Assembly (NCBI GenBank): GCA_030747395.1
Contig: JASLKT010000011.1
Span: forward strand, 1-34,720
Direction of reading: 5' to 3'
From: Candidatus Thalassarchaeaceae archaeon
Lineage (GTDB): Archaea > Thermoplasmatota > Poseidoniia > Poseidoniales > Thalassarchaeaceae
DNA length: 34,720 bases
Shown here: positions 15,874 through 32,979 of the stretch, piece by piece
Position numbering within the stretch: position 1 is the first letter of the stretch
How the letters are laid out: the number at the start of each line of letters is the position of its first letter
The notes under the pieces: model-generated
What the model was told of the DNA's origin: nothing
Databases searched by the model: none
What the model saw: only the letters and a program-made list of their open reading frames with translations
Made by a program: the position numbers and the translations under genes

Positions 15874-18800
15874 ATGGCGGAGGATGAGGAGGAGGAAACT
15901 GAGGCTTCCTCCGAAGACCGAATTCTCGATTCGAGGGCTTTCCAAATGGGGGGCGGAATCGACCTTGATGCATTCATGACGCCTGATGATTTGACTACTG
16001 CGAAACGCCCAGCATTGCCAGGGGGTTCGCCAACAGATGCCACTGCGGGAGAGGGGCCTGATGCCGGGCAGAGTAATGCAATTGAAATCGATGATGCTGT
16101 TGGCGAAATCTTTGAGGTGTTTGATCAAGATTCTGGCCCAAGACCAGGCGACATTCTCTCAGATGGGACTGTCTATGAAACACCCGAATTGGATACGATT
16201 ACAGAGATTGCTGTAGAGGGTGAACGACGATTGCATTGGGCCCTGATGGTCACAATGATCCTTGTTTACAGCCTGATTGGTTGGCTTGTAGCTACTGCTT
16301 TAGATCCTATGATGGCGACTGCCGGATTGATTGGATTGGCTACTTTGGGATTCATCCTTGGAGAACGCTGGGTTCCAGACAAGGGCATGCATATTCTTGG
16401 AGTCACATGGGTCATCATCTCAATGAAACTCCTCTATGGCCTTGCAATCGATGCTCATCACTGGGGTTGGATTGACACGCAGCAACTCGGTGGTTCTTTG
16501 ATTGCGCTTGTCGGAGTCAACATACTGGTCGGTTATCGTCACAAGCACGATGCGATTATGGCTCAAGCGACTTTGGTATCTCTCGCATTAGCATCAGCAG
16601 CAGGTTCCGTGGGTGGAGAACTTGGTGTCGCTGTGATGATTTTGTTCGCAACCATGCTCCTACACGGTTTGGCTTATCATCGTCAAAGCGGTAATTTGGC
16701 CTCACTAGGGATTGCCGCTAGTCATCTCTGGATTGGCCTTCATGCCATCCAATCAGAACCACTCTCGCTTGGGGCGTTGGAAATATTGCCACTGGCTGAT
16801 CCAATGCCTCTGTTCCTTCTCGCACTAGCTGTCACCTGCATCAACGGCTCAATGGCAGCTCGCTTCTCGCGAGCGGATAACTGGTTCAGCAAAGGAATTG
16901 CAATCAGTGGCCTGGGTAAACCCGGATTGTGGGGGGTCTCTGTTGGCCTCGGTATGATTGGAGGATTGCTTCTACTGGCCAGTGGCCGAGATGCGACGGG
17001 ATACTCACTAGGAATTCTGCTCTCTCTACTCGCTGTGTATGGTGGTTCCTATCTCGTTGTTCGAGGTGTCGATGCAATGGAGGTCCTGAAACCATTGCTC
17101 ACCTCATTGCCAATTCTGTTGATTGTTCTCATCGGTCTTGAATTGGATCTCGCCGGGAACTTGCCTGTATCTGGATATGAGGCCTTTGCGGTACTCTCTG
17201 CAATCGTCACAATTACAATGCTACTACAGCACCAATCCAATGTCACTGATCGTGTCCTTTGGCTCGGTAGTTTAGTCCTCATCCTATTACTGACAATTCT
17301 CATCCCTGCAGAATCTGCGACCGAAGGTGGCGACGAAGGATTGTATCTCCTCATCGGATTAACCGTGGTTCATTTGGCCACCGGTGCGTTGGCATTGAAG
17401 CGTGTATCCCCTAGCATCGCAGGTGCTACAGTGTTGGCTCCGTGGTTGTGGATGTTTGTTCACGCTTTGTGGACTTCTTCATTGGAGTCATTTTCCGAAG
17501 CCAGAGATATCGATGTCGATTTACTGATTGTTCTTGAGCCGAAATTTGTCGCCTTGTATCTTACAATCGCTGCGTTGATTCAATATCCCATCAATCTCAA
17601 ATTAGGAGATACTGGAGTTAATCTTGCAGGCAAGTTGATTGGAGCAACAGAATTGAGTTCGCGTTTGCGAGATTCTGGTTTGATGCGATTATGGAATCTT
17701 GGACTGCTCTCTGGCTTGGCTGTCTGGTTGATGTTCGTCGAAGGAAGGGACGATATTGGTTGGTATTCACTGCTTGGAATTACAGCGTTGGCTACCGTAC
17801 ATATTGTTGCTGAAGCACAAGGTAGACACCAAGGAAACCCACGAACTATTCTGCTCTGTCTCGCATTGACTTTCGCAGTATTGCAATGGAATTTCGGTGG
17901 GGATGCCTTCTGGATGATATTGCTGACGGGTGCTTCCGTTGCCATTTTATTGACAAGAGGAGAGGGTGGGCCGACCTCTCAAATGTTGAGTTTAACGATG
18001 GGGTTACTCACACTACAAATTGTGTTATTTGGATTGGATCATAGTCGTCCATTCCCACTACTTGATCCCGAACCATTGGACCGAATGCAAACCGGTTTCG
18101 TGATGCTCATTGCCGCAGGTAGTATCCTTGCAATCTATCTTCCAAGGGCTCGTAAATTGGAGAAATTATTGCCGCCAGCAATTGCTGTTGTTTGTTTGTT
18201 GAGTATCCAAATTTGGGCTGCCTCTGCAGAAGGTATGCACATTTCCCAGTCATTCCTAGCAATCGCTACATTCGTCGGGTCTGCACTCTATTTGGCAGCC
18301 ACTGGTGAACTGAGGATGGAACTCAAACAAGTTGGGAAGCGTGATGCGCGATTGGCCGAAATGCAACACAGACAAGCGTTGGCCGCTGCTCTCGAAAAAG
18401 GGCAACTATCGGGAATTACAGATTCCGAGCCTAAGCTACTGACTGATGGGGTTTCAGCAACATCTGCCATGACTGTTCTTGGAGATGAAGAGAAACCTCT
18501 CGATCTATCCCATGGAGGGAATTTGTTTCACTTTGCGGATGAAGATACTGCAGCTAAAGCAGCATCTGATAATACTGGTGTTCTCGCAAAATCACTTTCG
18601 CAAGCCATCTCACGAGGTGGTATGAAAATGGCTGATGCGGAATTGTATACTCTGATTGACAAGCAGCGCAAACGCCGCCGCAAATCAGGTTCACAATACA
18701 ATTCAGACGAGTTAGATCTCTTGATTGGTGATATTCACCATCGCCCAATCATTGTACTCTCATTCATCGCTGTGACAACCTTTGCAGCATGTTGGATTGC

Positions 18801-19932
18801 TTGGATGAATGGGCAACTGAATTCAGGATTGATGCTGATGGTTAGCCTATTCGCTTTGGCACTAACATGGGTCTCGCGCCAACGCGCCAAGGTTCACAAC
18901 CTCCGTTTACCCGATATCAATGGCATCGAAATGCCGTTTTTCGTCACCATGGGATCGTTATCATTGATCTATCTCGTTGGTCACTTCGGCCCTCTTGGAA
19001 GTCTGTACAACCAACTGGATTTACTGGTACTCACCTTCGGTCTTCTCGGTCTATCACTCATCTCGTTGTACGGGCGTGAAGATCTTCCTTGGAGGATTCC
19101 CAGTGCTGTCGAAGGCATCGTCATGATGCTGTTACTTTCTCGCCTTTGCGGTGCCTTGCTGTTCAATGCTGTTCCGTTCCCATTTACGGTCAATCTGCTC
19201 GATGGAACTCACGGTCTCATCGATTGGCAATTGCCATGGTTATTCCATGAATTCACACTGTTGGGTTTGGTGCTTGTTTGGGAGTGGATTGAAGCCTTCC
19301 GTCGTACCAATGGTATGCCTGACCATAGAGGGGCCGCTGGCCGAGGAAGTTTTGCACTCATGATTGTCATGGTGTCTGCTGGACCAGCGGGTGTATTGGC
19401 TGGGATTCTCTGCATGAAGCGCTCTTTCAATTGGAAACAACCCGCTGGAGTCGCCCTTTCTGTTTACGCAATCTTGGGTGGCTTGTTTGCATTCCTCGCT
19501 TGGACCGAGGGTGACGACTATCGAATCGCTCTACAATGGACAATCTTTGCCACTGGGGTTGTGATGTTAATGGCGCATGTTTACACGGTCTTTGCCGAAT
19601 TACCAAAATGGACAACTGCCTGGCTTTGGAATGCTCACATTATACTCCCAGTTGGTGTCTTTGCAATTGCCGGTTGGTCACCATGGTTGGTCGTCAGTGT
19701 GTTGGCATTGTCATTGGCGACATGGGTCGGTGGAATCTTACAACTTCGTCGAGGAATGCGTGTGATGGGGGCCTTGGATCTTGTCTTGGCATTATGTCTT
19801 GCGTTGTTGATTCTACAAGGCCAGATCCTTGAACCAAATATGTTGTTACTCATGCTCGTTGCACTTGGTATTGAGTTGGGAATTGTCGCTTGGCTTGGAA
19901 CCCGTCACGACATGCAATTGGCCCGAGATTGA
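15874..19932 (+). CDS. Giant polytopic membrane protein, about 35 or more TM segments, unknown function
   Basis: 1352 residues. An acidic, probably cytoplasmic N terminus of about 110 residues (EDEEEETEASSED...) precedes a long series of hydrophobic helices. By eye I count about 24 between residues 115 and 800 and about 13 from 950 to the end. Between them is a hydrophilic section of about 130 residues with a coiled-coil-like ARLAEMQHRQALAAALEKGQ and a basic KQRKRRRKSG run. The overall look recalls very large bacterial DUF2339-type membrane proteins, but I see no diagnostic motif and claim no homology. There are few charged residues in the helices, so a scaffold or lipid/polymer function is as plausible as transport. 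ATG 15874 lacks a Shine-Dalgarno. The FKBP-like gene follows after 62 nt and a hairpin. Confidence 0.85.
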   Translation: MAEDEEEETEASSEDRILDSRAFQMGGGIDLDAFMTPDDLTTAKRPALPGGSPTDATAGEGPDAGQSNAIEIDDAVGEIFEVFDQDSGPRPGDILSDGTVYETPELDTITEIAVEGERRLHWALMVTMILVYSLIGWLVATALDPMMATAGLIGLATLGFILGERWVPDKGMHILGVTWVIISMKLLYGLAIDAHHWGWIDTQQLGGSLIALVGVNILVGYRHKHDAIMAQATLVSLALASAAGSVGGELGVAVMILFATMLLHGLAYHRQSGNLASLGIAASHLWIGLHAIQSEPLSLGALEILPLADPMPLFLLALAVTCINGSMAARFSRADNWFSKGIAISGLGKPGLWGVSVGLGMIGGLLLLASGRDATGYSLGILLSLLAVYGGSYLVVRGVDAMEVLKPLLTSLPILLIVLIGLELDLAGNLPVSGYEAFAVLSAIVTITMLLQHQSNVTDRVLWLGSLVLILLLTILIPAESATEGGDEGLYLLIGLTVVHLATGALALKRVSPSIAGATVLAPWLWMFVHALWTSSLESFSEARDIDVDLLIVLEPKFVALYLTIAALIQYPINLKLGDTGVNLAGKLIGATELSSRLRDSGLMRLWNLGLLSGLAVWLMFVEGRDDIGWYSLLGITALATVHIVAEAQGRHQGNPRTILLCLALTFAVLQWNFGGDAFWMILLTGASVAILLTRGEGGPTSQMLSLTMGLLTLQIVLFGLDHSRPFPLLDPEPLDRMQTGFVMLIAAGSILAIYLPRARKLEKLLPPAIAVVCLLSIQIWAASAEGMHISQSFLAIATFVGSALYLAATGELRMELKQVGKRDARLAEMQHRQALAAALEKGQLSGITDSEPKLLTDGVSATSAMTVLGDEEKPLDLSHGGNLFHFADEDTAAKAASDNTGVLAKSLSQAISRGGMKMADAELYTLIDKQRKRRRKSGSQYNSDELDLLIGDIHHRPIIVLSFIAVTTFAACWIAWMNGQLNSGLMLMVSLFALALTWVSRQRAKVHNLRLPDINGIEMPFFVTMGSLSLIYLVGHFGPLGSLYNQLDLLVLTFGLLGLSLISLYGREDLPWRIPSAVEGIVMMLLLSRLCGALLFNAVPFPFTVNLLDGTHGLIDWQLPWLFHEFTLLGLVLVWEWIEAFRRTNGMPDHRGAAGRGSFALMIVMVSAGPAGVLAGILCMKRSFNWKQPAGVALSVYAILGGLFAFLAWTEGDDYRIALQWTIFATGVVMLMAHVYTVFAELPKWTTAWLWNAHIILPVGVFAIAGWSPWLVVSVLALSLATWVGGILQLRRGMRVMGALDLVLALCLALLILQGQILEPNMLLLMLVALGIELGIVAWLGTRHDMQLARD

Positions 19933-19937
19933 GAATT

Positions 19938-19956
19938 CGTCCCTCATAGAGGGACG
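19938..19956 (+). promoter_or_regulatory. GC hairpin after the giant membrane gene
   Basis: CGTCCCTC-ATA-GAGGGACG, a perfect 8-bp stem with a 3-nt loop, starting 5 nt after the stop of the giant gene and 38 nt before the next start. Placement fits a 3' end structure of the upstream message. However, no T-run follows (GGAGAATG), so it is not a classical terminator. Confidence 0.55.
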
Positions 19957-19994
19957 GGAGAATGTTCAAGCAGGTCGACTGAATAGACAGGTTC

Positions 19995-20966
19995 GTGAGC
20001 GGTACTTGGATATCGGATCGGCCTGAGGCGGAAGAACACCCTGTGGTGCCAATTGGCCTCAACGAGATGGCTGTTCCTCGAATTTCCATTCTAGCAAGTT
20101 TTGGCACCATCGCGATGTTACTATTATCTGCCATTTGGCTTGGTTTTGCCACCAGTTCGTTCCTCAACCAATTCGAAGATGCCTTTGCTGCCGTTGCCGA
20201 AGAAGACATTCAAGTCGATGGTCGATGGACGTGGGAGGCCACTCTCCTTTTCGATGGCTGTGATGCTCGAAATGGAGAATGGAATTGGCCCTCAAATTTA
20301 GCAGAACAAGATGATGTGTTCTGGTTCCCTGGTGAATTGGAGTGTTTCTGGGAACACCAAGGTGTGGGTGATTATGCGCATTTGGCCATTCACAATGTAG
20401 ATGAAGAACGTGAACTGCCGCTTTCAATTGAAATCAATCATGCCGCTATCTCGATTGATGGTGATGGTCAAAGTGCCGTGACTTCAATCGCTGCTGGTGA
20501 TGCGGTCATCATTCCTCTTCGGCTTGAAACTCTTGTTGAAGAGGCTCAATTCACGATTGAATTGGTTCATGTGTCCTTGCCTTCAGCCAAAGTCAATTTA
20601 GATGTCGACATGTTCTCTGATGGTTCTGATCGAGACCGACATGTTAGAAGTGAAAGAATGAATGTTGCCTATACCGTATGGAATGCAGATTCAAACGAAC
20701 AATTGGACTCCGGTACCCTTCCTGCAACGGCTGGTGAAGATCCGATGTGCAATACCGAACCACCAGTCCCATGGGTTTGCTACATCGAAGGATTTGGATG
20801 GGGTCTTGTTGGGTTGGATGCTGATCTTCAGGAATCGCTCACATTATCCGGAACAAATCATAGAATCCTTCTTCCTCCAGATTTAGCATATGGTAACAAT
20901 GATGGGCATGAGTTACAAGATGCTTGGCTTCTATTCGATTTGGAATTAGAGCAATTGTTCATCTGA
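19995..20966 (+). CDS. Membrane-anchored extracytoplasmic protein with divergent FKBP-type domain
   Basis: 323 residues from GTG 19995 (ATG 20067, MAVPRISIL, is a good alternative). One N-terminal membrane anchor (LASFGTIAMLLLSAIWLGF) is followed by an extracytoplasmic beta-rich region with Cys in DGCDARNG and ELECFWEH. The last 110 residues resemble an FKBP peptidyl-prolyl isomerase. VAYTVWNADSNEQLDSG matches the first strands (V.Y.....G..fDs), GFGWGLVGLDADLQESL matches the PGweeGL.gMk.G region, and HRILLPPDLAYGNND with AWLLFDLELEQL matches the usual r..iPpelAYG...p...l.FdveL. Several aromatic active-site positions seem changed, so isomerase activity is uncertain; it may be a chaperone or binding domain. 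It sits between the giant membrane gene and a methyltransferase. Confidence 0.72.
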   Translation: MSGTWISDRPEAEEHPVVPIGLNEMAVPRISILASFGTIAMLLLSAIWLGFATSSFLNQFEDAFAAVAEEDIQVDGRWTWEATLLFDGCDARNGEWNWPSNLAEQDDVFWFPGELECFWEHQGVGDYAHLAIHNVDEERELPLSIEINHAAISIDGDGQSAVTSIAAGDAVIIPLRLETLVEEAQFTIELVHVSLPSAKVNLDVDMFSDGSDRDRHVRSERMNVAYTVWNADSNEQLDSGTLPATAGEDPMCNTEPPVPWVCYIEGFGWGLVGLDADLQESLTLSGTNHRILLPPDLAYGNNDGHELQDAWLLFDLELEQLFI

Positions 20967-21011: not shown

Positions 21012-22265
21012 ATGGCGGACATCAAACCGGTAGTGATGGTACCGGACGACAATGCACGGGCTTATGCCGAATCTAGCGCGCCCGCGCGCGAGGAAGAGGG
21101 AGGGCCCGCTCTACACGCGACCGATGAAATGCGACGATTGGCCACACCATGGACTGTTGCAATTGCGCGGGCACATCTCCTTGAGTCGTGTGATATATCA
21201 CAAGGAGTAATCCTTGATCCTGCCTGCGGTAGTGCAACCCAACTTGCAGCTCTTTGTTCAACTCTAAATCGGCCAGGTTTAGGAGTTGAATTGTCTGGTG
21301 CTGCTGCTCCTCTAGCGGCAATAAATCTCGAACAATGCTCAGTTTGGTCCGGAGGTGATTGGGGGCATTCTAGTCGAATATTGTGGGGTGACGGGACAGT
21401 TGCAGAATCAATTTTGCAAACCTATCATCACAATATCGGGGTCACATCAGCAATTGCGTTACTACACATTGATCCAGCTAGACCACAAGATGCTCAAAAA
21501 CACACACTTGAGGAAATGCAACCAAGACTCGATCACCTTCTATCATCATGGGCTCCGTTTCTTCCGAGAGAGCCCGCACTGATTCTTGATTTATCGCCTC
21601 GATTATCTGATGAACAGAGATTGCAGGTTGAGAGCATCATTTCGTCAATATGGGGTGATGTGAAAACAACGTGGCAATGGATGACTCAAGGTAGAGGACG
21701 AATCGATCGGTTGTCTCTTTGGGTCGGGCCAGTTGCTGATCCACAATCCTATCGATTGGTGCGACTCACCAAATCAGGAAACATGAATATTCTGACTGGG
21801 CTACAAAAAGTGCCTGTAAATGAGGGGCGTTCTGTTGGAGTAGGACAGCACCTAACCATTGTAGACCCAAGTTTGGTAGCGAGTCAATTAACCGAATCTT
21901 GGAGAGAAAGGGCTGTGGCAGATGGAGATGGAAATTGGCTTAATCTCACTGGAAGACGACCGACTTTCATCAGCAGTGAGGCCATAATGGATAACGAAGC
22001 AGTGAAAGGATTTGTGCAGATTACTGGACAGATTGTTGGAACGGCATCAGAGGTGTCATTTGAATCGCTGAGTGAACTGGCAACGACTGCAAATCAATTG
22101 GGTCTTTCGAGTTTGAAATTACGTTGCCAAATCGAACCGGATATTCAGCCCAAATTACAATCGGCAATCGATCGTGAGATGAAGCAGTTTGGTTCTGAGG
22201 TGAATACATCTCAAGGCTTCATCACAGAAGCCGGAGAAGGTTACGCAATCTGTAATCAAGCGTAA
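21012..22265 (+). CDS. THUMP-like class I SAM-dependent methyltransferase
   Basis: 417 residues, cytoplasmic. The Rossmann SAM-binding motif I is VILDPACGSATQLAAL, at about residue 68. A later ALLHIDPARPQD is the motif of the THUMP-like/PG_1098 group, whose members read YIDPAR and are putative RNA or DNA methyltransferases. A RGRIDRLSLWVGP stretch and a C-terminal region of about 100 residues rich in alpha/beta alternation (FVQITGQIVG, SLKLRCQIEPD) would be the substrate-binding THUMP-like part. Target unknown. The family call rests on two short motifs and general layout, so it is moderate. It lies 45 nt after the FKBP-like gene and is followed by a hairpin and the ribosomal operon promoter. 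Confidence 0.72.
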   Translation: MADIKPVVMVPDDNARAYAESSAPAREEEGGPALHATDEMRRLATPWTVAIARAHLLESCDISQGVILDPACGSATQLAALCSTLNRPGLGVELSGAAAPLAAINLEQCSVWSGGDWGHSSRILWGDGTVAESILQTYHHNIGVTSAIALLHIDPARPQDAQKHTLEEMQPRLDHLLSSWAPFLPREPALILDLSPRLSDEQRLQVESIISSIWGDVKTTWQWMTQGRGRIDRLSLWVGPVADPQSYRLVRLTKSGNMNILTGLQKVPVNEGRSVGVGQHLTIVDPSLVASQLTESWRERAVADGDGNWLNLTGRRPTFISSEAIMDNEAVKGFVQITGQIVGTASEVSFESLSELATTANQLGLSSLKLRCQIEPDIQPKLQSAIDREMKQFGSEVNTSQGFITEAGEGYAICNQA

Positions 22266-22303: not shown

Positions 22304-22373
22304 TTCATATAGGGGGGGAGAGTCGCGAGGATGCCTCACATGAGGCCACTGGGCAACTGGTGAACAGGGGAGG
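22304..22373 (+). promoter_or_regulatory. Promoter, palindrome and Shine-Dalgarno of the rps13 operon
   Basis: A TATA-like TTCATATAG at 22304-22312 would start transcription near 22333. Exactly there is a near-perfect palindrome GCCTCA-CA-TGAGGC (22333-22346), followed by a 35-nt leader. The ribosome site GGGGAGG (22367-22373) lies 8 nt before ATG 22382. The palindrome could be an operator at the start site or a 5' hairpin. A G7 run follows the TATA element directly. Confidence 0.5.
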
Positions 22374-26974: not shown

Positions 26975-27330
26975 GAATCCGAGGGAAGCAATCCATGCCG
27001 TCGCTTGGCGAATTGATTGTATCCATAGTCACGCAGAGGTAGGGGAATCAGCCATAACAAAGTCCCAGCGATTTTCCAATGAAGTCTAAGTTCCCATAGC
27101 ATTCGGCAAATTGCACTTGAGCGAGCATACCATTGATGATTTTTGACAATGTACACAGAGTCTACATCTTTGAGTAATTCTGGACAAGATTCCATAACAG
27201 CATTACCTTCGGGTGAATCTTGAGGTAATAATTCAAACACTTTTTTTGGGTCTCTCTTGGAAATCCATTTCGCCCAACGATTGCAAGTCAAACAGAATCC
27301 ATCGAACAAAACAATGGGCAATGAAATCAT
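26971..27330 (-). CDS. DCC-family thiol-disulfide oxidoreductase-like protein (DUF393)
   Basis: 119 residues. The signature IVLFDGFCLTCNRWAKWI has the D-x-x-C-x-x-C of the DCC family (DUF393), named for that motif and thought to have a thioredoxin-like fold. SVYIVKNHQWYARSSAICRML and the basic LPLRDYGYNQFAKRRHGLLP end are also typical. The start at ATG 27330 overlaps the leuS stop as ATGA, and its own stop overlaps the nuclease start as ATGA, so three genes are coupled. It may be membrane-associated through LLWLIPLPL. Redox activity is inferred from CxxC only. Confidence 0.87.
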   Translation of the reverse strand: MISLPIVLFDGFCLTCNRWAKWISKRDPKKVFELLPQDSPEGNAVMESCPELLKDVDSVYIVKNHQWYARSSAICRMLWELRLHWKIAGTLLWLIPLPLRDYGYNQFAKRRHGLLPSDS

Positions 27331-30191
27331 CTCCAAGCGATACCTGGTTCCAATGGGATGCTTGATCGTGCTTTACCCGCAACATCTTCACCTGTTCCCG
27401 CCCGATACACTTCTACATCTTCTATTTCCAATGCAGCTACGATGAATTCAGCATTATCTAAGAGGAAATCAACTTCATTATATTCGCTTGAAACGAGAGC
27501 CCTTTCTTGTTCACCCCATGTGTGAATTCGACCCCTTCGTTTCTTCTGACCGACGACAATCGCACGCCAAAATTGCATCACGTCACCTTTTGTTTCTTCA
27601 TCTTGGAAGCATTGTTGAGTCTGCAAGAATTTATTTCCTCCTTCTTTGAAATCAAAGTTTTCATCGTGCATTTGAATCGCTTGTGATGCAAGTTTCACCT
27701 TCCAATGTTGTGCAGTTTGAATGATGACTGCTGAAAGATCTCCTTCGGTGTGACGCTCTGCCAATTCCCGGACACTTCGTGCCCGATCGATTACTCTCCG
27801 TAGATATTCTTCCTGACCTAGAACAATTACGTCGCGAGAAGATACTCCCTTTGAATTTTCTAAATCAAGAACTGTGAGGGCAAGCATGGTATCCATTCCC
27901 AAACCCTTCCACATCTCTTCTGCAAGATGTGGTGTAGCTGGATATAGCATGGGAATCCAACTGGTCAAATATTCACGACTGGCGCTGGCACTTACACCCC
28001 CTCGACGTTGGGCCCATTGCCAATCTGCAACCATTTCAAAATGGCTAATCATCACTCCATCTCTAAGGCCCACATTTGACATGCTGTCGATCCAACTACT
28101 GCGAGATTGGCGTGCGCGAGCAAGAAGCCATTCATCCATTGTCCCTAATTTTGAATCATTTTCAATACCTTGAACCAATGCAGAATGAATGGCCCTCATT
28201 TGGCGATAATTTGAATCGATGGCTGAATCTGACCAATCCATTCCAGCCTCTGGATTTGCACCAAAGAGGATGAACAAGCGGACTGTGTCAGCTCCGTATT
28301 TCTCAATCATTATTTCAGGACTGACTGTATTTCCTAGACTCTTACTCATTTTCGCGGATCTTGAACCCAATAGTCCGCCACAAGTCGGGCACTTTTGACC
28401 TTCTAAATCGACATGGTGTTCTACATTACAATCAGCACAGAAAGGAGTGGGGGCATTCACCATTCCTTGACAAACCAACTGAGAGAATGGCTCCGATACG
28501 TCATTGAGGCCAGCGTCTCGAAGGGCCTTGGTAAAGAATCGGGCATAGAGAAGATGCATGACAGCATGCTCGATTCCTCCAATGTAGAGATCTACGCCAT
28601 TCTCCAACCAATAATCAGCACTTTTCTTATCGAACGGAGCGGAGTCGTTGAGGGCATCTGCAAATCTCAAGAAATACCAAGATGAGTCATAAAATGTGTC
28701 CATTGTATCCGTTTCTCGTTTCGCTGCGGCGCCACAAGAGGGGCAATTTGTATTGACGAACCCGTCATGATTGGCCAAGGGATTCCCCGACTCGCCTTCT
28801 GTGAATACTACATCCAATGGTAATTCAACGGGCAAATTCGCCTCTGGAACTGGTATGACTCCGCAACTTCTGCAATGAATGAAAGGAATTGGTGTACCCC
28901 AAAAACGCTGACGACTCAACAACCAATCCTTCAGACGATATTGAACCGTACCTGTACCCATTCCTTCTCCTTCTAAGGCGTTGATGACTGCTGCTTTGGC
29001 GTCGTCACCATACAACCCATCAAAGCCGGGTTGACCTGAGTTTACCATCCACCCCAATCCCTCAAAGGCACGTCCCGTCACTTTCGGGTCCTTGCCTTCA
29101 TCTTCGGAAAGAACCTGAAGAATGGGTATTTCGTATTTCTTTGCAAATTCATGATCGCGTTGATCGTGGCCAGGTACTGCCATTACTGCACCGGTTCCAT
29201 ATGATGCAACAACGAAATTCCCAGCATAGATTGGAACCTTTTCTCCAGTCAATGGATTCGTTGCATAGCGCCCTAAGAATACTCCTTTCTTATCACGAAG
29301 CATATTGATGCGATCAAACTCTGATATTCTTGCGCATTCATCAGCAAGTTCACGGAAATCTGATTCGAATTCAGTGCCTGAAACAAGTGCGTTGCACAGG
29401 GGGTGTTCGGGTGCGAGAGTAACGAATGTTACACCAAAAATGGTATCTGGGCGTGTTGTGAATGCCTTGATGACATCATCACTATCAACGATTGGAAAGT
29501 GAATTTCGGCACCATGTGAGCGACCAATCCAGTTGCGTTGCATGGCCTTTACATTCTCAGGAAAGCTGATGTGTTCCAATTCGTCAAGTAATTCATCAGC
29601 ATATTCTGTCATTTTCAGAAACCACTGTGCCATGTCCTTCTGTCGGACTTCTCCGGCACATCTCCAGCAACGATTGTTCTTGACTTGCTCATTTGCCAGA
29701 ACAGTGTCACAGGGATCACACCAATTCACTGGGGCCGTTCGACGTTCTACCAAACCCATCTCATGGAATTTGAGGAAAATCCACTGGTTCCAACGGTAGT
29801 AGGTAGAATCACTTGTAGCCAATTCCCTGCGCCAATCATATGAGAATCCCATGCGATTCAAATCAGCACGAATACTCTCGATATTTGACCAAGTTACGTC
29901 ATGAGGGTGTCCGCCAATTTTCTTAGCAGCGTTTTCTGCTGGCATTCCAAAAGAATCGTAACCCATCGGATAGAGAACATTGTAACCTGCTAATCTGCGG
30001 AATCGGGCCATGCTGTCGCCAATACTGTAATTTCGAACGTGGCCCATGTGCATTTGACCACTTGGATATGGAAACATCTCCAAGCAGTAGAATTTCGGTC
30101 GGCTCGAATCCACTTCACTTTCGAACGCTTTGGCGTCGTTCCATGCGGATTGCCACTTGGCTTCAATTGTGGTAGGGTCGTAGTCCGTCAT
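27327..30191 (-). CDS. leuS: Leucyl-tRNA synthetase, bacterial type
   Basis: 954 residues, class I synthetase charging tRNA-Leu. The HIGH motif is in EMFPYPSGQMHMGHVRNYSIGD (HMGH at 48-51), KMSKS at about residue 615 in SAKMSKSLGNTVSP. Zinc knuckles are CDPC...CWRC and CRSC...CPSC. The CP1 editing domain shows TTRPDTIFGVTF and GTGAVMAVPGHDQRDHEFA, and the core has TDTMDTFYDSSWYF and GGIEHAVMHLLYARFF. All of these are the bacterial versions. Archaeal and eukaryal LeuRS carry a different HIGH region and place the editing insert differently, so this gene was probably acquired from bacteria. The C-terminal region is about 80 residues longer than in E. coli. GAGG lies before ATG 30191. Confidence 0.97.
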   Translation of the reverse strand: MTDYDPTTIEAKWQSAWNDAKAFESEVDSSRPKFYCLEMFPYPSGQMHMGHVRNYSIGDSMARFRRLAGYNVLYPMGYDSFGMPAENAAKKIGGHPHDVTWSNIESIRADLNRMGFSYDWRRELATSDSTYYRWNQWIFLKFHEMGLVERRTAPVNWCDPCDTVLANEQVKNNRCWRCAGEVRQKDMAQWFLKMTEYADELLDELEHISFPENVKAMQRNWIGRSHGAEIHFPIVDSDDVIKAFTTRPDTIFGVTFVTLAPEHPLCNALVSGTEFESDFRELADECARISEFDRINMLRDKKGVFLGRYATNPLTGEKVPIYAGNFVVASYGTGAVMAVPGHDQRDHEFAKKYEIPILQVLSEDEGKDPKVTGRAFEGLGWMVNSGQPGFDGLYGDDAKAAVINALEGEGMGTGTVQYRLKDWLLSRQRFWGTPIPFIHCRSCGVIPVPEANLPVELPLDVVFTEGESGNPLANHDGFVNTNCPSCGAAAKRETDTMDTFYDSSWYFLRFADALNDSAPFDKKSADYWLENGVDLYIGGIEHAVMHLLYARFFTKALRDAGLNDVSEPFSQLVCQGMVNAPTPFCADCNVEHHVDLEGQKCPTCGGLLGSRSAKMSKSLGNTVSPEIMIEKYGADTVRLFILFGANPEAGMDWSDSAIDSNYRQMRAIHSALVQGIENDSKLGTMDEWLLARARQSRSSWIDSMSNVGLRDGVMISHFEMVADWQWAQRRGGVSASASREYLTSWIPMLYPATPHLAEEMWKGLGMDTMLALTVLDLENSKGVSSRDVIVLGQEEYLRRVIDRARSVRELAERHTEGDLSAVIIQTAQHWKVKLASQAIQMHDENFDFKEGGNKFLQTQQCFQDEETKGDVMQFWRAIVVGQKKRRGRIHTWGEQERALVSSEYNEVDFLLDNAEFIVAALEIEDVEVYRAGTGEDVAGKARSSIPLEPGIAWR

Positions 30192-30274: not shown

Positions 30275-32932
30275 TCATTCAGTGGAAACGTCGTAGTCAT
30301 TGCTGTTGACCAAGAAGATGGCTTCCCGAGTCAATTGATACCGATAACGCATGCCTACCTTTTCTCGCTCTACAAGGCCAAACTTCTCCAGTGTACGGAG
30401 GTGGTGACTGACCAATTGTTGACTAGCCTCAAGTCGCACCGACAATTCTTTCTGACTCAGATTCACGATGTCGTTTTCCGTGGCATCCAGAAGTCGCAGA
30501 ATCTTACCCTGCAAACTGTTAGGGTCGGGTGTAAGCAATGGAACTGGCAATTCATCCTCACCCAATGTCGATTGGATACTAGCTGGATAGAAGCGTACCA
30601 ATCGACCATCCTTACGCCTCCAAATTCTTTCGCCAGTCTGAAGGTGTTTGAGATGGTGTGTGAGTTGTCCGTTGCTCATCTCAAGGGCTCCCAGTAAGGC
30701 ACGGAAATGAACTCCGGGGTTTGCTGTTAGATAGCCCATAATGCGTCCGCGTTGATATTCACCATCGTGTTCACCTGATCGGCGGACCATTCCAACGAGG
30801 CCGAGGCCCACTTGCAATGCTGGAATCCGAATCCATTCTGTGTTGCCTAGGTAGAGCAATGTCATGAGGGAAAGTGATGTTGTTGCTACCACAGCAGCAG
30901 AGGTTGGGGCATAATTGATGATTTGGTCGACTGGGCTTGGAGGTGGAGATGAGGGGGTAACTGGAGCAACAATTTCAGGTGCGGTCTCGGTTTCATCCAA
31001 TGTCTGTAGAATTACGATGCCCGACCATGCAGCACAGTCATCTGGTGCTTGACCAGACTGTACCATGTAAGTGCCGCTTAGGCCAGGGGTGGGGGCCCAC
31101 TCATCATCTTGCACGTGTTCGATGAAACTGTATTCGACACCGACTGAATCGGTGAGGAGCCAACATCCCCGACTAGGTGTTGTGACATAATTCCACATTC
31201 CTGACAACCATACTTCTTCGATTGAATTGTCAGGGCTTTCTACAATATCTTCCTCGATTGTGTCGCTGCCAGAATTGTCTTCGACGACATCAGAAATGTG
31301 CGCCCCATCGTATGTGTGTGCAATTTGAGTAGTGAATGTCGGTAACGAAGTTGTTTGAATTGAGATATGCCAAGTACCCTGCGCCAATTCAATTCCATTT
31401 TCAACAAATGGCACTTCAATCGTAGGCCAAGTGTATCCCGATTGAGGTTCGATCAAACTCTCATGTCCTGCGAATTCGCCACAATCTTCGGCCCAAATTT
31501 GCGATGGGTTTTCTCCAACCATTGCTAGTTGTAATTCTAGAGTGCAATCAGTTGGCCAATAGAGATTGAATGCCTCGAATCCGATATTCTGAATCGTCAA
31601 ATCGAATGATACTCGTTCTTCAAGACTATCAGGTGAAAGAACTGCCAAATTATCTACTGTGAATCGAATGCTAGTCATATCTTGTTGTTCGGTTCCACAA
31701 CCTGGATTATCCCCACTATTGACGTGTAAAAACGACTGGGTTGCGACGATTCCGTGATCGGGTTGACTCAACACAAGTAGGTGGACGCCATCATCGATTT
31801 CGCAGCCGTTGGAACCCATGTAATCCCAACTGTCCGAAGCTAGAGTGTGGATGGTTTGCGGCGCAATTTTTTGCTCTATTCCCGAAGGGGGGCAAGGGCG
31901 GGTGTCGCGGGTGTCGTAGACGATTTCCCCACTAGGAGATATGATGTGCAATTCAACAATGCACGTGTTTTCATACAGTAACTTTGCAGGCACATCTGCG
32001 GGGTTCTGGAGCATGAAATACCAATTCAATTGATCTCCTGCATCAATGACTGCTTCTGGAATTATGTTAGCAACGGGGTTGGTTGGAATTCTTGTGTATG
32101 CTGTATCGACACTGCTCTCTGCCCCATTGACAGCTGTGAGTGCAAACGGAATTGTGTAATCGCCATCGGGAGCGTTGCCAAATGCCCACTCGGTCCAGCC
32201 GAGGTGCATCTTCTCTCCTGCAGCAATTGAACCACTGCCACATGGGATTGATGTGAGTATGTTTGTTTGCACCCGGCAATTCTCATCGAATGGGATATCG
32301 ATGGTGTTCTTTCCTGAATTGACCAAGGAGAGATGAATCATTGCAGGCATTGCAGAGGTATGGCCATATTGATCGCCGATGGTTTCTGAAAGGGTTGCTT
32401 CAAGGTGAAGATTTTCTGGCATCTCAACGGTACGGTGAAGAATCACTGATTCAGTTGCCGAAAGTTCGTGATACTGGACGGCCGCTTCCGTCCCCCCGTC
32501 CTGCGTGAATGCGAGTTCGATGTCACCACTAGGAGTATCACTCCAATCCCAAGTCCAAGTGGAGAGAATGCGTTCTTGACCCGCTTGAATTGTCATTGCT
32601 CGACTTTGAGTCGGACAAATTCGCTCGTCATCAATATCGAGTTTCCACTCATCATTTGTGATGATTAAATCAAATGGGCAAGCGGGATTGTAGGTCAACT
32701 CCTTTGCATCATCACCATGATTCTTGACCCGCAGGGTGACTTCTAGGTCAGATGCATCTGAAAAATACAAGCCATTCTCTGGTGTATCGATTTCGATTCG
32801 CAACTCAAGGCCGTTTTCAGCAGGTTCAGCGACAGCGAGTGGGGCCAAGACCATCAAAATCAGCAATGCCGCCAATGACGCCGGCCTGAAATTGACATCC
32901 CGTAGCATGCGCTCGCCCCATATCGTCAGCAT
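30275..32932 (-). CDS. Membrane-bound one-component regulator: BsuPI-like repeats, TM, tandem winged helix
   Basis: 885 residues from ATG 32932 (MLTIWGER, GGAGG just upstream); the track start at 32977 lies in a hairpin. A signal or anchor segment (ASLAALLILMVLAPLAVA) leads to an extracytoplasmic region. That region has four similar beta-sandwich repeats recalling BsuPI domains, each holding a Cys pair (NPACPFD/ICPTQ, ENCRVQ/IPCGSG, NTCIVE/RPCPPS, TDCTLE/EDCGEF). A fifth domain follows with two more Cys (GCWLL, DDCAAW), then an acidic linker, a TM helix (AAVVATTSLSLMTLLYLG) and two winged helices: RIMGYLTANPGVHFRALLGALEMSNGQLTHHLKHL and ILRLL...LSVRLEASQQLVSHHLRTLEKFGLVERE. All 12 cysteines lie outside the cell and none in the DNA-binding half. 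The likely role is signal sensing at the surface with direct gene control; ligand and targets unknown. Confidence 0.8.
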   Translation of the reverse strand: MLTIWGERMLRDVNFRPASLAALLILMVLAPLAVAEPAENGLELRIEIDTPENGLYFSDASDLEVTLRVKNHGDDAKELTYNPACPFDLIITNDEWKLDIDDERICPTQSRAMTIQAGQERILSTWTWDWSDTPSGDIELAFTQDGGTEAAVQYHELSATESVILHRTVEMPENLHLEATLSETIGDQYGHTSAMPAMIHLSLVNSGKNTIDIPFDENCRVQTNILTSIPCGSGSIAAGEKMHLGWTEWAFGNAPDGDYTIPFALTAVNGAESSVDTAYTRIPTNPVANIIPEAVIDAGDQLNWYFMLQNPADVPAKLLYENTCIVELHIISPSGEIVYDTRDTRPCPPSGIEQKIAPQTIHTLASDSWDYMGSNGCEIDDGVHLLVLSQPDHGIVATQSFLHVNSGDNPGCGTEQQDMTSIRFTVDNLAVLSPDSLEERVSFDLTIQNIGFEAFNLYWPTDCTLELQLAMVGENPSQIWAEDCGEFAGHESLIEPQSGYTWPTIEVPFVENGIELAQGTWHISIQTTSLPTFTTQIAHTYDGAHISDVVEDNSGSDTIEEDIVESPDNSIEEVWLSGMWNYVTTPSRGCWLLTDSVGVEYSFIEHVQDDEWAPTPGLSGTYMVQSGQAPDDCAAWSGIVILQTLDETETAPEIVAPVTPSSPPPSPVDQIINYAPTSAAVVATTSLSLMTLLYLGNTEWIRIPALQVGLGLVGMVRRSGEHDGEYQRGRIMGYLTANPGVHFRALLGALEMSNGQLTHHLKHLQTGERIWRRKDGRLVRFYPASIQSTLGEDELPVPLLTPDPNSLQGKILRLLDATENDIVNLSQKELSVRLEASQQLVSHHLRTLEKFGLVEREKVGMRYRYQLTREAIFLVNSNDYDVSTE

Positions 32933-32950
32933 TGTCCTCCCGTTTGAAAC

Positions 32951-32979
32951 CATTGGCGCCCCCTTAGGGGGGGCCAATG
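32951..32979. promoter_or_regulatory. Long GC hairpin between divergent regulator and MBL genes
   Basis: Outer arms CATTGGC / GCCAATG, one mismatch, then inner CCCCC-TTA-GGGGG, giving a 12-bp stem overall. It lies 18 nt before the regulator start and 41 nt before the MBL start. Both genes read away from it, so it is not a terminator. As the strongest of the boundary hairpins it is a good candidate operator, possibly for autoregulation by the adjacent regulator. Confidence 0.6.

Follow-up and report, generated by a model that had tools for sequence, protein, structure and literature searches.

A divergent, predicted extracytoplasmic FKBP-like domain on a membrane anchor in Thalassarchaeaceae (Marine Group IIb) archaea

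Does a small membrane-anchored protein of an uncultured marine archaeon carry a genuine FKBP domain on the outside of the cell, and if so, what might that domain do there? The FKBP fold belongs to a familiar class of enzymes that assist protein folding, and a first-pass annotation of a 34,720-nucleotide stretch of DNA (the whole of which we call the window) had claimed a strongly divergent, extracytoplasmic version of it in the open reading frame at 19995–20966 (+), preceded by a beta-rich region that could not be named and perhaps forming a unit with a giant membrane protein encoded next to it. The host is a member of Candidatus Thalassarchaeaceae (Marine Group IIb), where named records also place the orthologs.

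The gene encodes 323 amino acids arranged as a cytoplasmic tail, a signal-anchor helix, an Ig-like domain and an FKBP-like domain. Nearly all orthologs share a GTG start in the same place and a tail resembling SGSWISDxPxxxEHPxVPLGxNEMxxPR, which indicates that the start codon chosen in the first-pass annotation is right. This tail spans residues 1–29 (19995–20081, +; conserved among orthologs as SGxWISDxP...EHPxVPLGxNEMxxPR), and 11 of 30 columns in the tail region are invariant across 69 orthologs, whereas the membrane segment has 2 such columns of 30. The protein has one hydrophobic segment, peaking at residues 30–48 (Kyte-Doolittle 2.05), which together with an AF2 helix over residues 29–63 marks a single signal-anchor transmembrane helix (20079–20183, +). 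Arg29 stands before the helix and an acidic stretch behind it, a charge bias that suggests an N-in/C-out anchor and, by the positive-inside rule, would put the tail on the cytoplasmic side. Together with the paired cysteines described below, the single segment and the charge bias agree with the earlier placement of the C-terminal domain outside the cell, on one predicted anchor.

The beta-rich region between the helix and the FKBP part is present as first described and can now be read as an Ig-like sandwich (residues 77–208; 20223–20618, +). AF2 places strands at about 80–208 with pLDDT mostly 82–95, and the top Foldseek matches of this region are mostly Ig-like sandwiches, including the VAP-A MSP domain, pilus chaperones and complement macroglobulin domains, so that the model puts the middle domain among the Ig-type beta-sandwiches; additionally, the homolog L247 has a weak match to HYDIN/VesB Ig (E 0.0086). 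Cys89 and Cys117 of this domain occur as a pair in all 69 orthologs. In the FKBP part, Cys252 and Cys262 (20748–20780, +) form a lineage-specific pair and probable disulfide, with both residues present in 23 orthologs, neither in 46 and one alone in none, and cysteines at 276 and 281/282 likewise occur together, in 7 orthologs, or are both missing, in 62, all these counts being of sequences and not of independent events. Gain and loss of cysteines in pairs is the pattern expected of disulfides in an oxidising compartment, and the pairs are thus probable disulfides that would fit an oxidising extracytoplasmic site.

Whether residues 209–323 (20619–20963, +) are an FKBP domain could not be read from the window copy by itself. 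Against FKBP_C (PF00254), whose curated Pfam cut-off is 21.1 bits, the window protein alone scores 13.9 bits (E=0.069; 16.4 bits for the domain) in a match of only 36 residues, phmmer against the PDB and an NCBIfam search of the window protein returned no match, and the family profile gives little signal against FKBP12 alone (probability 2%). The profile comparison that had been proposed earlier therefore falls short of the cut-off for the window copy and passes it for some of its relatives: at E<=1, FKBP_C recognises 62 of the 67 ortholog domains (best E 4.7e-6), the ortholog L087 exceeds the cut-off at 22.6 bits, and distant Thermoplasmatota proteins with the same anchor, Ig and FKBP layout score 28.6–41.7 bits in alignments that span the whole domain. 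Similarly, the profile-profile score of the family against a set of four FKBPs (FKBP12, Fpr1, FkpA and FklB, of which FKBP12 was confirmed to be identical to the PDB) is 29.4, whereas 100 column-shuffled controls average 11.6 and reach at most 20.2. In a joint alignment, where the distant proteins form a link between the window protein and the FKBPs, the sequences read YIEGFGWGLVGL (window), YIDGFYLGLLGM (L243) and VIRGWEEGVAQM (FKBP12).

Structure prediction gave a similar result. Ig-like sandwiches dominate the full-length Foldseek search and leave its FKBP part uninformative, so the domain was folded alone (residues 197–323, no templates), giving a model of moderate confidence (pLDDT 73.9). 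All 50 listed PDB matches of this model have the FKBP fold (best E 1.8e-4), with TM by query length of about 0.4–0.6 among the matches listed; these include FKBP12, 13, 14, 25, 35, 51, 52 and 53, SlyD, Mip and trigger factor, as well as two bacterial BAM-complex chains, 9hjm_I and 9his_I. For the last 110 residues, whose fold the first-pass annotation had named as decisive, the AF2 and Foldseek outcome thus favours FKBP, and the two motifs on which it relied are indeed kept, LPPDLAYG at residues 293–300 and FDLELEQL at 314–321. Collectively, the ortholog matches, shuffle controls, fold search and distant homologs of the same layout confirm, as far as sequence comparison and modelling reach, that the C-terminal domain is a divergent yet real FKBP whose resemblance to the class goes beyond chance.

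In Thalassarchaeaceae, 35 of 36 genomes hold an ortholog; the first search of 23 sister-family genomes gave none. Within Poseidoniaceae, genus g20 has an ortholog at 33–39% identity; most other members of the family have no detectable ortholog, which indicates that the protein is not universally needed, and a diverged FKBP copy sought between the Poseidoniaceae methyltransferase and PEPCK genes was not found. One metagenome-assembled genome holds two copies of the FKBP gene (G024:C11:2338-3279 and G024:C21:5505-6446), for which a strain mixture or a duplication is possible. When Thermoplasmatota were searched with the family profile, proteins of other families emerged that have a membrane or lipobox anchor, an Ig-like region and an FKBP domain, namely L243, L245, L247, L250 and L212 of Marine Group III, at 17–26% identity over the whole protein. 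In a wider profile search, the Ig and FKBP parts were covered in 8 of 8 matched genomes of the class-level sister family f3, which from its place in the class we infer to be Marine Group III. These proteins resemble the window protein in anchor, Ig-like region and C-terminal FKBP domain, but have clear FKBP_C matches and lack a tail of the WISD type, and two of them look lipid-anchored; L250 (2178-3062) has an N-terminal zinc-ribbon-like stretch ahead of its membrane helix. Elsewhere in the window's own genome, two proteins of archaeal types (L138 and L139, SlyD-like and long FKBPs) match FKBP_C above the cut-off. They belong to the FKBP superfamily as the window protein does, but are predicted to be cytoplasmic, their sequences showing no membrane segment, and have other accessory parts and higher Pfam scores.

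The pocket of the domain bears on what it may do. Aligned in register with FKBP12, the equivalents of the ligand and prolyl pocket (20670–20936, +) are Y226 (Y26), L237 (F36), D238 (D37), I264 (I56), F267 (W59), Y299 (Y82) and F314 (F99). Six of these (Y226, D238, I264, F267, Y299 and F314) do not vary across the 69 orthologs, while the F36 position is Leu in 66 and Ile in 3, and the invariant Phe267 at the W59 position is accompanied by an invariant Trp269 two residues on. The active-site aromatic residues that the earlier reading proposed to inspect are therefore mostly kept, with the counterparts of Y26, Y82 and F99 retained and those of F36 and W59 replaced. Such invariance implies strong constraint, and the predicted pocket speaks for an ability to bind Xaa-Pro segments and, probably, to isomerise them.

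We consider it reasonably probable that the protein is an extracytoplasmic, membrane-tethered FKBP and a putative prolyl isomerase or foldase, with activity, topology, disulfides and substrate class all predicted. The single signal-anchor helix (N-in/C-out) would tether the FKBP to the outer face of the cytoplasmic membrane, with the short conserved tail staying in the cytoplasm; outside, the disulfide-stabilised Ig-like domain would act as a spacer or client-binding module that presents the C-terminal FKBP domain. The latter would most likely bind Xaa-Pro segments in client proteins that are newly secreted or belong to the surface, and catalyse or chaperone the cis-trans isomerisation of these clients, comparable to the action of NmPin, FkpA and PrsA in other envelopes.

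A possible though rather unlikely alternative is that the FKBP fold has been kept as a binding or scaffold module with no meaningful isomerase activity, which might keep proline-rich stretches of an envelope complex in place or dock to the translocon or ribosome through the conserved cytoplasmic tail. The change of F36 to Leu or Ile, the change of W59 to Phe and a seemingly shortened 80s loop mean that activity could be weak or absent, and this alternative would also accommodate the divergence of the window copy to below the Pfam cut-off, the very conserved tail and the presence of the BAM-complex chains 9hjm_I and 9his_I among the fold matches. However, strict invariance of the Asp37, Tyr26, Ile56, Tyr82 and Phe99 equivalents goes beyond the needs of a bare scaffold. 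Moreover, Phe also occupies the W59 position in the canonical archaeal FKBP L138 of the same genome (MILGFEREVMG), so that this position is variable and not defining, and Phe there is no argument for loss of activity.

Much less credible is the proposal that the protein is a dedicated folding or assembly partner of the adjacent giant polytopic membrane protein (15874–19932, +; 1352 aa), which has no family match above cut-off. In all 80 Thalassarchaeaceae loci examined, the big membrane gene stands directly before the FKBP gene in the same orientation, and a methyltransferase-like gene containing DPACGS follows directly after it; where the contig reaches, PEPCK precedes and the rpsM-rpsD-rpsK-rpoD cluster follows. 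The methyltransferase-like protein of the window (21012-22265; ILDPACGS motif) has no Pfam or NCBIfam match and lies just before rpsM wherever the contig reaches. With the entire neighbourhood conserved, adjacency alone says little, and in each of the two Poseidoniales families homologs of the big protein adjoin PEPCK. The complete Poseidoniaceae genome G036 retains the big gene (36% identity) beside PEPCK and the methyltransferase-like gene before rpsM, but has no FKBP ortholog, by family profiles, between those genes or elsewhere. In g20 the FKBP gene is located elsewhere, about 8 kb from the big gene in G177, the sole stretch of this genus that spans both. In g20 loci (L162:10812-11324, L161:7237-7746, L163:7313-7840) it lies immediately upstream of a gene for a cyclophilin-type prolyl isomerase, an association that would favour the foldase reading, though it may be due to chance.

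The sequence between the two genes also argues against a joint unit. The FKBP start is preceded by a conserved element (19959–19975, +; family consensus SCYAACSTTGATGA at -37 to -25, local variant GAATGTTCAAGCAGG), which is a probable core promoter or operator. Allowing <=1 mismatch, CCAAC[CG]TTGATGA occurs 35–37 bases before this start at 46 loci, against just 3 further occurrences in ~1 Mb; as a candidate regulon signal it was tested and looks gene-specific. Its conservation is clearly above that of the upstream regions of the big, methyltransferase-like and GHMP kinase genes, and not above that of rpsM, where a strongly conserved stretch of the family (about 22360–22373; consensus GTGAACACGGGGG at -22, 12.2 bits) is perhaps a leader. 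The position of the element before the FKBP gene would be in keeping with a promoter that gives a leaderless transcript, with an operator also possible, and suggests that the gene is transcribed separately from the big gene. Between the two genes lies, in addition, a hairpin, CGTCCCTC-ATA-GAGGGACG (19938–19956, +; MFE -14.7 kcal/mol), which is kept in most loci of the window's genus. The earlier idea of a unit is weakened accordingly: its adjacency holds in 80 of 80 loci, but the absence of an FKBP ortholog from G036, the relocation in g20 and the separate promoter-like element make the big protein a syntenic neighbour and probably not an obligate partner.

That the domain is no FKBP at all, with an LPPxxAYG-like string arisen by convergence on an unrelated beta-rich domain, is suggested by the short window-only Pfam match and the empty phmmer search, and is in practice refuted by the shuffle controls, the fold search and the orthologs and distant homologs above the cut-off with whole-domain alignments.

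Two other genes of the window were noted. A leucyl-tRNA synthetase (27327-30191, -) matches the bacterial model above cut-off (882.9 bits) and failed the archaeal one, which suggests a LeuS of bacterial type in this archaeon, and a 900-aa protein (30275-32977, -) contains a BsuPI-like domain and two winged-helix regions.

Secreted and surface protein folding in single-membrane archaea is poorly known, and the family is a candidate foldase in an uncultured group that is among the most abundant archaea of the ocean, easily missed because the window copy falls under the standard Pfam threshold. A more doubtful extension is that Thermoplasmatota share an undescribed family of envelope foldases built from anchor, Ig-like and FKBP parts, of which the near-universal Thalassarchaeaceae version would have its tail coupled to translation or translocation and its own promoter element. 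In the literature searched, with most subscription journals outside its scope, there is no description of the anchor-Ig-FKBP layout, FKBPs go unmentioned in the two MGII papers covered, and for archaeal extracytoplasmic FKBPs NmPin was the sole close analogue.

Among known systems, FKBP12, FKBP13 and FKBP14 (PF00254) share with the window family the predicted fold, the LPPxLAYG motif and the equivalents of Y26, D37, I56, Y82 and F99, whereas the family differs in Leu or Ile for F36, Phe for W59, a shorter 80s loop, an extended insertion ahead of the LPP strand, lineage-specific cysteine pairs and a window copy under the Pfam cut-off. FkpA, Mip, PrsA and the BAM-complex chains 9hjm_I and 9his_I are similarly extracytoplasmic PPIase or FKBP-fold modules that serve envelope proteins, but have other anchors and accessory domains, and are not known to carry an Ig-like spacer on a signal-anchor helix. 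The closest analogue in the way it may work is NmPin of Nitrosopumilus maritimus, an outside-facing, membrane-associated parvulin prolyl isomerase of a marine thaumarchaeote and, in the literature searched, the one archaeal prolyl isomerase facing outward that has been characterised by experiment; unlike the window protein, it is a single domain of parvulin fold that attaches electrostatically instead of through a helix (PMC4922055). Taken together, these comparisons indicate that the window protein is best read as an FKBP by descent, with a new archaeal layout that widens an established class of enzymes; it does not amount to a new type of system.
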